Origin: a virus | DNA: 21,834 nucleotides | Virus record (IMG/VR): IMGVR_UViG_3300025132_000357 | Span: 1 to 21,834 of that record | Reading direction: 5' to 3' (one strand) | Part shown: positions 5,581 through 6,184 of the stretch, in pieces | How positions within the stretch are numbered: position 1 is the stretch's first letter | Layout: each line of letters opens with the position of its first letter | The notes under the pieces: generated by a model | What the model saw: only the letters and a program-made list of their open reading frames with translations | What the model was told of the DNA's origin: nothing | Databases searched by the model: none | Translations under genes and position numbers: made by a program

Positions 5581-5673
5581 TTAGAACTTGTAACCATACA
5601 AGAACCTAGCTTCAGCGTATATGATAGTTAGAAATATAGCAGATGCTGCTAAAATTTCTGCGGTAACTAACAT
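5581..5673 (-). CDS. 30-aa single-span membrane peptide
   Basis: Micro-ORF reading MLVTAEILAASAIFLTIIYA, then EARFLYGYKF. Residues 5-20 form a hydrophobic helix flanked by charged and aromatic residues, the size class of small photosystem or cytochrome b6f subunits, although I cannot match it to PsbI, PsbN, PetG, PetL or similar. The ATG shares TAATG with the TYRG protein stop (5671-5675), so the two are coupled. The stop is followed within 6 nt by the terminator. A thylakoid or plasma membrane site is inferred. Confidence 0.6.
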   Translation of the reverse strand: MLVTAEILAASAIFLTIIYAEARFLYGYKF

Positions 5674-5780
5674 TACTTAGCGTGAGCGATACCACGATAT
5701 GTGAGTTCGACCTCTTTTGCTTGCTGAGCTTTTTTGTTGTTGGTGTCATATACAACACCACGATAAGTGACTTTTGCCAT
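5673..5780 (-). CDS. 35-aa TYRG-repeat protein (DUF4278-like)
   Basis: Tiny protein with two copies of the (V/L)TYRG motif: KVTYRGVVYDTN at residues 3-14 and ELTYRGIAHAK at the end. LTYRG is the hallmark of cyanobacterial DUF4278 proteins, so this is probably a host-derived fragment or mini-version. Function is unknown. It has a good ribosome-binding site (GGAG, 9 nt before the ATG at 5780) and is coupled to the 30-aa membrane peptide. It lies downstream of the riboswitch peptide with no terminator between them, so riboswitch transcripts should extend through it. Confidence 0.7.
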   Translation of the reverse strand: MAKVTYRGVVYDTNNKKAQQAKEVELTYRGIAHAK

Positions 5781-5818
5781 TAGGTTTCTCCAAAGTAGTA
5801 GGGTTTTAATCCGTTCCT

Positions 5819-5989
5819 TTAGTCAACTTGTGCGTCCTCAAAACATACTGGATCAGTATGTGCCACAATCACTCTAGTCATCTCTAACCTGTTAGGGTCA
5901 AAGGGTCTAACCAAAGATAGCAACTCATTGGCATCTGCACAATTAAGTGGAGCACCGAGTAATACTAATTTCATTAAAATGCTATACAT
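5819..5989 (-). CDS. Riboswitch-controlled small peptide, 51-56 aa
   Basis: Short ORF directly downstream of the probable glutamine-II riboswitch. Two starts are possible: ATG 5989 (56 aa) or ATG 5974 (51 aa, MKLVLLGAPLNCADANELLS). The open frame continues to 6112, but that longer form would run through the riboswitch and into the promoter, so I reject it. The protein has a beta-strand-like start and ends MTRVIVAHTDPVCFEDAQVD with two Cys in total. Neither start has a clear Shine-Dalgarno. The Downstream-peptide RNA class is named for sitting before short ORFs of this size. A role in tuning host nitrogen metabolism is a reasonable guess only. Confidence 0.65.
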   Translation of the reverse strand: MYSILMKLVLLGAPLNCADANELLSLVRPFDPNRLEMTRVIVAHTDPVCFEDAQVD

Positions 5990-5990
5990 G

Positions 5991-6050
5991 AGGATGAACG
6001 AACCCGTTCCGAGTCGGCTTACTTGCGTCCTGAATGTATCAGGATGAACG
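5991..6050 (-). ncRNA. Probable glutamine-II (Downstream-peptide) riboswitch
   Basis: On the minus strand CGTTC (6050-6046) pairs with GAACG (6009-6005) to form P1. Inside it a 5-bp hairpin CCTGA/TCAGG (6043-6039 with 6033-6029) precedes the conserved core GACGCAAGTAAGCC (6029-6016), recalling the glnA/Downstream-peptide glutamine aptamers of marine picocyanobacteria and their phages. Downstream, CGTTCATCCT is repeated exactly (6000-5991). The 3' P1 strand GAACG can therefore pair instead with CGTTC 6000-5996 through a GGTT loop, an alternative helix ending 6 nt before the ATG at 5989. This looks like a translational switch. The motif is identified from memory; ligand and sign of control are not shown by the sequence. 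Confidence 0.72.
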
Positions 6051-6059
6051 ATTGTGTTA

Positions 6060-6088
6060 ATACTAACACATGTATAGTATATAGTCAA
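6060..6088 (-). promoter_or_regulatory. Sigma70 promoter of the riboswitch unit
   Basis: The -35 TTGACT (6083-6088) and -10 TAGTAT (6060-6065) are separated by exactly 17 bp. Predicted start is near 6053, only a few bases before the aptamer's first P1 base at 6050, so the riboswitch begins essentially at the 5' end of the transcript. Confidence 0.72.
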
Positions 6089-6124: not shown

Positions 6125-6156
6125 AAAAAAAATACCCCGATTTTTTGTCGGGATAT
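6125..6156 (-). terminator. Intrinsic terminator after the glutaredoxin operon
   Basis: The stem ATACCCCGA / TCGGGATAT (6132-6140 with 6148-6156, one mismatch) has a T-rich loop and a T7 run on the minus strand (6125-6131). It ends the glutaredoxin-to-6185 transcript just before the riboswitch-unit promoter. The right flank is also T-rich, so weak plus-strand activity is possible. Confidence 0.75.
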
Positions 6157-6184
6157 TTTGGAATCAAAAGCTGATTTTGGTGGC

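Follow-up and report, generated by a model that had tools for sequence, protein, structure and literature searches.

Two copies of the sequence CGTTCATCCT lie on the minus strand of a 21.8-kb virus record (the window, i.e., the whole stretch of 21,834 nucleotides that was analyzed), at 6050-6041 and 6000-5991, and a single GAACG between them (6009-6005) is able to pair with the CGTTC of either copy; with the second copy it forms a hairpin, GAACG-GGTT-CGTTC, that ends 6 nt before the A of an ATG at 5989. These observations, made in an initial annotation of the locus, were all confirmed in the sequence, as was the placement of the repeat at a predicted transcript 5' end: a sigma-70-like promoter stops immediately 5' of the first copy and predicts a transcript start at ~6053. 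The window encodes tail fibres, thymidylate synthase, PhoH, exonuclease, and single-strand binding protein, a gene set that is, by its content, that of a T4-like cyanophage; P-SSM2 is among its closest named relatives in a DNA comparison around the element. 

The best explanation, which we regard as probable, is that the DUF4278 transcript of this T4-like cyanophage has a leader with a double glutamine riboswitch, one aptamer nested in the other; covariation shows the structure, and we infer that it binds two ligands. In the outer aptamer, the first CGUUC and the last GAACG would pair to close a three-way junction of the glutamine-I (glnA) type; the P3 helix of this aptamer would open into a second, circularly permuted aptamer, the P1 of which is the hairpin GGAACG-loop-CGUUC, so that a single P3 would connect the two binding sites. 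The parts of the element in the window, in the direction of transcription, are these:

6125..6159, minus strand: terminator-like hairpin that parts the element from the upstream gene (this hairpin is called on the plus strand too, at 6136-6152).
6060..6088, minus strand: sigma-70-like promoter, a match to consensus only (-35 TTGACT at 6088-6083, -10 TAGTAT at 6065-6060, spacer 17).
6046..6050, minus strand: outer P1 5' strand CGUUC, in the first repeat copy; RNAalifold on 39 ORF-free relatives gives the last GAACG as its partner.
6028..6044, minus strand: outer P2 hairpin UCCUGA-UACAU-UCAGGA, ORF-free in this phage; P2 covaries in relatives.
6020..6027, minus strand: outer binding-site strand CGC (ls1 is C6025, partner G5811, from the ls1/last-flank pairs) and 5' loop E strand AAGUA (6024-6020).
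6012..6019, minus strand: P3 5' strand AGCCGACU, common to both aptamers, partner 5828-5821, from P3 covariation between the units.
6004..6010, minus strand: GGAACG of the inner permuted aptamer, the canonical 3' P1 strand coming first; its flank G6004 pairs with C5832 (ls2/first-flank pairs).
5996..6000, minus strand: inner P1' 5' strand CGUUC, in the second repeat copy, forming a hairpin with 6009-6005 (loop GGUU; sequence and RNAalifold).
5989..5994, minus strand: inner P2' 5' strand UCCUCA, which ends on the A of the AUG of the ORF, from compensatory changes.
5819..5989, minus strand: 56-aa ORF between the P2' strands, extending into the 3' half of the aptamer (55 viral relatives; pN/pS).
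5835..5840, minus strand: inner P2' 3' strand UGAGGA, from the comparison of P2' in relatives.
5832..5834, minus strand: inner binding-site strand CGC (ls2 is C5832), from ls2 pairing.
5821..5828, minus strand: P3 3' strand AGUUGACU, its final U opening the stop codon UAA (5821-5819), from P3 covariation.
5811..5820, minus strand: 3' loop E strand AAA (mostly GAA in relatives), G, outer P1 3' strand GAACG (5816-5812), and flank G5811.
5788..5795, minus strand: CUUUGGAG, the Shine-Dalgarno sequence of the DUF4278 gene; its CUUUGG part can pair with CUAAAG 5822-5817 (anti-SD, within the aptamer).
5673..5780, minus strand: DUF4278 gene, 35 aa (PF14105, E 1.4e-6; phrog_5049).

The identification of a phage glutamine aptamer in the initial annotation is borne out by cmscan of the window, in which RF01739 (glutamine-I) scores 35.1 bits at 6052-6001 (gathering score 35, E 2.6e-4), more than chance; the assignment to the glutamine-II class is not, since only RF01739 passes its gathering score and RF01704 (glutamine-II) reaches 32.7 bits in the window vs a gathering score of 33. 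Two relatives do pass the RF01704 gathering score (35.7 and 34.0 bits), and their enclosing helices contain several non-standard pairs. The outer aptamer carries the glutamine-I loop E strands, that is, AAGUA plus, in most relatives, GAA, and across relatives it has the glutamine-I three-way junction of P1, P2, and P3 with its loop E (AGUA/GAA); in the window AAA stands in place of the consensus GAA. The junction of the inner aptamer is reduced (AAA/C) and lacks the glutamine-I loop E. Given the Rfam scores and the covariation, we reject a single glutamine-II aptamer with a competing strand.

The RF01739 match uses the first GAACG as the partner of the first CGUUC; the partner that matters, we find, is a second GAACG at 5816-5812, overlooked in the initial annotation and located directly 3' of the stop codon of the 56-aa ORF. 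A second CGTTCATCC occurs at the homologous site in the viral relatives of this ORF whose contigs reach that far, with one base different in L155. The relatives comprise 55 viral loci. In most of these the first CGTTCATCC is located ~203 nt, not 20 nt, upstream of GGACGCAAGTAAG, with a whole ORF of 67-68 aa between, and all of the relatives end in GACGCA...GACTRA, followed directly by AGGAACGG; therefore, each CGTTCA is part of one half of an aptamer, and the P2 loops are occupied by small ORFs. (A circular permutation alone, without an outer aptamer, was suggested by relatives that appeared to have no near 5' strand; it was dropped when the strand was found ~203 nt upstream, beyond the ORF.) ORF-free forms of ~82-102 nt, with both units back to back, were obtained with a glnA-type pattern scan of viral contigs.

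The 177 distinct phage elements that were compared fall into four configurations: an ORF in P2' only (75, including the window and P-SSM2), in both loops (52, e.g., P-HM1), in neither (40), and in P2 only (10). The elements were selected by at least three pairs at the start of each P2, which leaves the fourth and fifth pairs free of selection; in the loci that fail this requirement, the missing part is at or near a contig end in all except L284. P2' is paired across ORFs of 49-66 codons: its fourth pair is U-A in 57, C-G in 49, A-U in 14, and U-G in 7, that is, in 127/127 of the ORF-bearing elements, and the fifth is a standard pair in 121/127. The strands differ accordingly from phage to phage (UCCUCA/UGAGGA in the window, UCCUUA/UAAGGA in P-HM1, UCUUCA/UGAAGA in L155, UCUCAU/AUGGGA in P-SSM2). 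When P2 holds an ORF it is shorter, often with 3-4 pairs.

The initial annotation took the small ORF for the downstream target of the switch; instead, the loop of the inner P2' contains this ORF, and the gene behind the element is the DUF4278 gene. The ORFs are set into the RNA at regular positions: counted from the start of CGTTCA, the ATG lies at 10-13 nt in 62/62 of the P2 ORFs and at 9-21 nt in 126/127 of the P2' ORFs, and 120/127 of the latter have their stop codon inside the aptamer; in the window, the last codons of the 56-aa ORF encode the GGACGC...GACUAA of the aptamer. Judged from their sequences, the embedded ORFs are under purifying selection (pN/pS 0.25 for the 67-aa ORF, 0.41 for the window's family with 32 sequences, and 0.46-0.48 for two other families); profile searches match them to phrog_6471 and, weakly, phrog_504. 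Most of the peptides have a hydrophobic start and then a cysteine (e.g., MIDLLLYSTLSCADADA), and some may resemble export signals (MTKALLLLAWVPLLS). The P2' ORF of P-SSM2 (L002 6010-6146) is unannotated in its record; the counterparts in P-HM1 and P-SSM4 are annotated. As a separate observation, many ORF-free elements (L015, L027, L049, L062, L116, L381, which is S-PM2, and others) share a near-identical 22-nt inner P2' hairpin, TTCGCTATTCGCAAATAGCGAA, and its conservation far exceeds the need of pairing alone.

We used a long-range base pair to tell a nested from a side-by-side arrangement. In the glutamine-II crystal structure, the third base of CGC pairs over a long range with the base that follows GGAACG, and this pair caps the CGUUC/GGAACG binding helix; a corresponding pair exists in glutamine-I (PMC6698751). 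Any base was allowed at the tested sites. The base ls1 of the first unit pairs with the flank of the last GGAACG in 177/177 elements (152 C-G and 25 G-C) with no mismatches, and ls2 pairs with the flank of the first GGAACG in 176/177 (172 C-G, 2 G-C, and 2 G-U, with one unpaired C-A); the changes occur in both directions and in both units. The first version of this test comprised 125 elements; the 177 elements are distinct but mutually related phage sequences, so their counts are those of non-independent events. P1 and P1' are invariant and, hence, have no covariation of their own. The initial annotation had proposed to look for covariation of the duplicated 10 nt in related phages; the repeat itself is nearly invariant, and it is its partners, that is, P2', P3, and the long-range pairs, that covary as the nested model needs.

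A second line of evidence is P3, which links the 5' strand between AAGUA and the first GGAACG to the strand before the GAA of the second unit. Its end pair is standard or U-G in 72/72 cases (U-A 49, A-U 11, G-C 10, U-G 2) and its fifth pair in 71/72 (G-C 53, G-U 13, A-U 5), values that were each reached by 0/500 shuffles; the third pair is a C.A/A.C mismatch that is kept in the common class, as the sixth often is. For 32 skeletons, 99.4% of the cells of the nested structure are paired, with a covariation score of 0.399 vs 0.122 for shuffled sequences; slid controls all have <50% paired, and the side-by-side long-range pairs reach 59.4% each. A plain alignment of 39 ORF-free elements, given to RNAalifold without the model, returned the nested P1, P2, P1', and P2', and the single-sequence minimum-energy folds of three elements (L061, L099, and L086) are the whole nested fold. 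The Rfam glnA model itself places L303, L099, and L061 in the nested register, with 38-41 bits and 39-43 nt skipped in P3.

The inner unit reads GGAACG-loop-CGUUC-A-P2'-CGC-P3; because this keeps the canonical cyclic order, with the open end at P3 rather than P1, the unit is a circular permutation of a glutamine aptamer. With regard to the second repeat copy, the initial annotation was right that its CGTTC pairs with GAACG; this copy is no mere competitor, however, and provides the P1 5' strand of the second, permuted aptamer.

An RNA that changes topology, being side by side without glutamine and nested with it (or side by side until the ORF has been transcribed and nested from then on), is the alternative closest to the competing helices first proposed; we think it unlikely. 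Either CGUUC can pair with GAACG 6009-6005, and the first GAACG also allows a lone promoter-proximal aptamer to be drawn, as in the Rfam match at 6052-6001; this aptamer is complete ~50 nt past the predicted start, when the ORF is still to be transcribed, and could at first fold by itself. The constrained folding energies of the window are -66.9 kcal/mol (nested) and -65.9 kcal/mol (side by side), which does not decide between them, and the unconstrained minimum, at -72.0 kcal/mol, is neither; because the two folds are within ~1 kcal/mol, competing pairings are possible in the window according to these energy models. However, no covariation specific to the side-by-side form was seen, and the ls1/first-flank pair that it uses is standard in 152/177 elements vs 177/177 for the nested pair.

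Two ordinary glutamine aptamers in tandem, each closing on its own GAACG, are much less probable still. Since the P1 strands are identical, the side-by-side P1 helices are also 100% paired; taken alone, the first unit has an Rfam score of 35.1 bits in the window and the second one of 36.9 in L353 and 35.4 in L116, and 157 doublet glutamine riboswitches have been reported as tandem (PMC9481103). Nevertheless, the long-range pair, if closed within each unit, is mismatched in 25 and 25 of the 177 elements, the P3 covariation runs between the units, and the first unit lacks GAA while the second lacks AAGUA; true tandems have both in each unit. One such true side-by-side pair of complete glnA aptamers is present in a phage contig (L112, ~12423 and ~12490, reverse complement). 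About as improbable is a DNA cassette, in which the repeats are a recombination site that swaps small ORFs and the aptamer likeness is inherited and no longer functional: the four configurations and the dissimilar ORFs in the same slot are as it would have them, but compensatory changes maintain all of the helices regardless of the content of the loops, and ORF-free forms persist upstream of a DUF4278-type gene in S-PM2 and P-TIM68.

The DUF4278 gene is likely the regulated gene. Its match to PF14105 is better than the curated cut-off. In the glutamine synthetase inactivating factor IF17, the DUF4278 domain covers the N-terminal part, and the glutamine riboswitches of hosts, which act as ON switches, mostly precede DUF4278 genes (PMC6316151). 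Ordinary single glnA aptamers in other phage contigs (L022 and L081) also precede DUF4278-like genes, as judged from the ORF start. We propose that glutamine stabilizes both sites and that CUAAAG 5822-5817 is thereby drawn into P3, loop E, and the junction; otherwise, CUAAAG could pair with CUUUGG 5795-5790 and mask the DUF4278 Shine-Dalgarno sequence. Glutamine should therefore switch DUF4278 on, with the folded aptamer leaving CUUUGGAG free for translation as in the host riboswitches. Folding of the segment in isolation predicts the CUAAAG/CUUUGG hairpin; the complementarity of CYRAAG to the Shine-Dalgarno side is 6/6 in 92/169 elements, a modest excess over the maximum of 89 in 2000 shuffles, and the leader 3' of the element differs in some relatives.

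The same fold would occupy the AUG of the embedded ORF and should hinder its start, because the AUG begins at the last base of a P2' strand. Conversely, ribosomes on the ORF would traverse P2', CGC, and P3 and undo P2' and P3, so a translated ORF and a folded aptamer should be mutually exclusive. Alternatively, a ribosome stopping at 5819 would also cover the anti-SD, and translation of the ORF might then aid that of DUF4278; we rate exclusion only a little above such coupling. The P3 shared between the two sites could confer cooperativity, with a response steeper than that of a single aptamer. The complete scheme, in which two cooperating aptamers of the same class, one permuted within the P3 of the other, carry translated genes in their loops, ribosome and glutamine compete, and the conditions that favor the embedded gene are opposite to those that favor the downstream gene, is put forward tentatively, as rather more doubtful than secure.

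The element occurs in P-SSM2, P-HM1, P-TIM68, P-SSM7, P-RSM6, P-SSM4, S-PM2, P-RSM1, and S-N03; those of S-PM2 and P-TIM68 are ORF-free. In 386 + 201 cyanobacterial genomes, a covariance model (R1), which detects ORF-bearing forms poorly, gave only matches of 50-60 nt, that is, single aptamers (two were inspected). A core pattern gave two real elements in 400 + 386 genomes, both in picocyanobacterial assemblies. One is in G719 contig 3 (L375), which resembles P-HM2 by BLAST, and the assembly seems, on this likeness, to include phage DNA; the other (L284) is in a contig of the Prochlorococcus single cell AG-337-J18 that is taken to be phage. The pattern scan of host genome contigs yielded mostly chance matches, and L284 is among the matches listed.

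A separate observation concerns the promoter, the -10 box of which is within a short inverted repeat (window 6070-6053). The arms co-vary among phages (GGTATG/CATACC, GGTCTA/TAGACC, TGTGTTA/TAACACA, and ATGTCAT/ATGACAT), and arms of at least 5 bp are present in 143/164 distinct upstream regions vs about one third of shuffled sequences. An operator or a DNA-hairpin promoter are candidate readings of this repeat.

If the nested structure is correct, a riboswitch aptamer has been circularly permuted in nature and lies inside a second aptamer of the same class; a whole gene can be enclosed by an aptamer, and the sequence of a binding site sets the stop codon and last amino acids of a peptide. The element is testable, as it is carried by cultured isolates (P-SSM2, P-HM1, P-SSM4, P-SSM7, P-TIM68, and S-PM2), and the downstream gene type makes part of a glutamine synthetase inhibitor in cyanobacteria, which would provide a concrete lead into the sensing and steering of host nitrogen metabolism by ocean viruses. 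T4-like cyanophages already have annotated glutamine riboswitches, including one match of 99 nt in S-CREM1 (PMC9964418, PMC9602691), which in length would be compatible with a nested element. In the open-licence literature, we found no description of a nested or permuted riboswitch of this arrangement or of a small gene in the hairpin loop of a glutamine sensor. The known natural circular permutations listed in a 2023 paper are those of hammerhead, twister, 5S rRNA, and group II introns as well as genes with processed transcripts, with riboswitches absent (PMC10085705).

Compared with known systems, the phage element resembles glutamine-I (glnA, RF01739) in the outer unit, with its P1/P2/P3 three-way junction, CGUUCA, AAGUA, and GGAACG, in the nested register in which Rfam aligns ORF-free relatives, and in the DUF4278 gene downstream, as in hosts; unlike glutamine-I, the phage P3 ends in a second aptamer rather than a loop, the long-range pair is in many cases C-G where glutamine-I has G-C, and P2 may hold an ORF. 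With glutamine-II (Downstream-peptide, RF01704), it shares a core, CGC...GGAACGG, as in the structure of that class (PMC6698751), the small peptide ORFs nearby (PMC2864571), and a window score slightly below the cut-off; however, the enclosing helix of the class is lost in the phage element, and the ORF is within the aptamer, not downstream. As in the tandem glutamine doublets (PMC9481103), two aptamers precede one downstream gene and a steep response is expected; those doublets, some of which may in reality be nested, are described as separate neighboring units, whereas here the second unit is a circular permutation in the P3 of the first. Finally, as in the natural circular permutations of hammerhead, twister, 5S rRNA, and group II introns (PMC10085705), the 5' and 3' parts are exchanged and the structure is the same.
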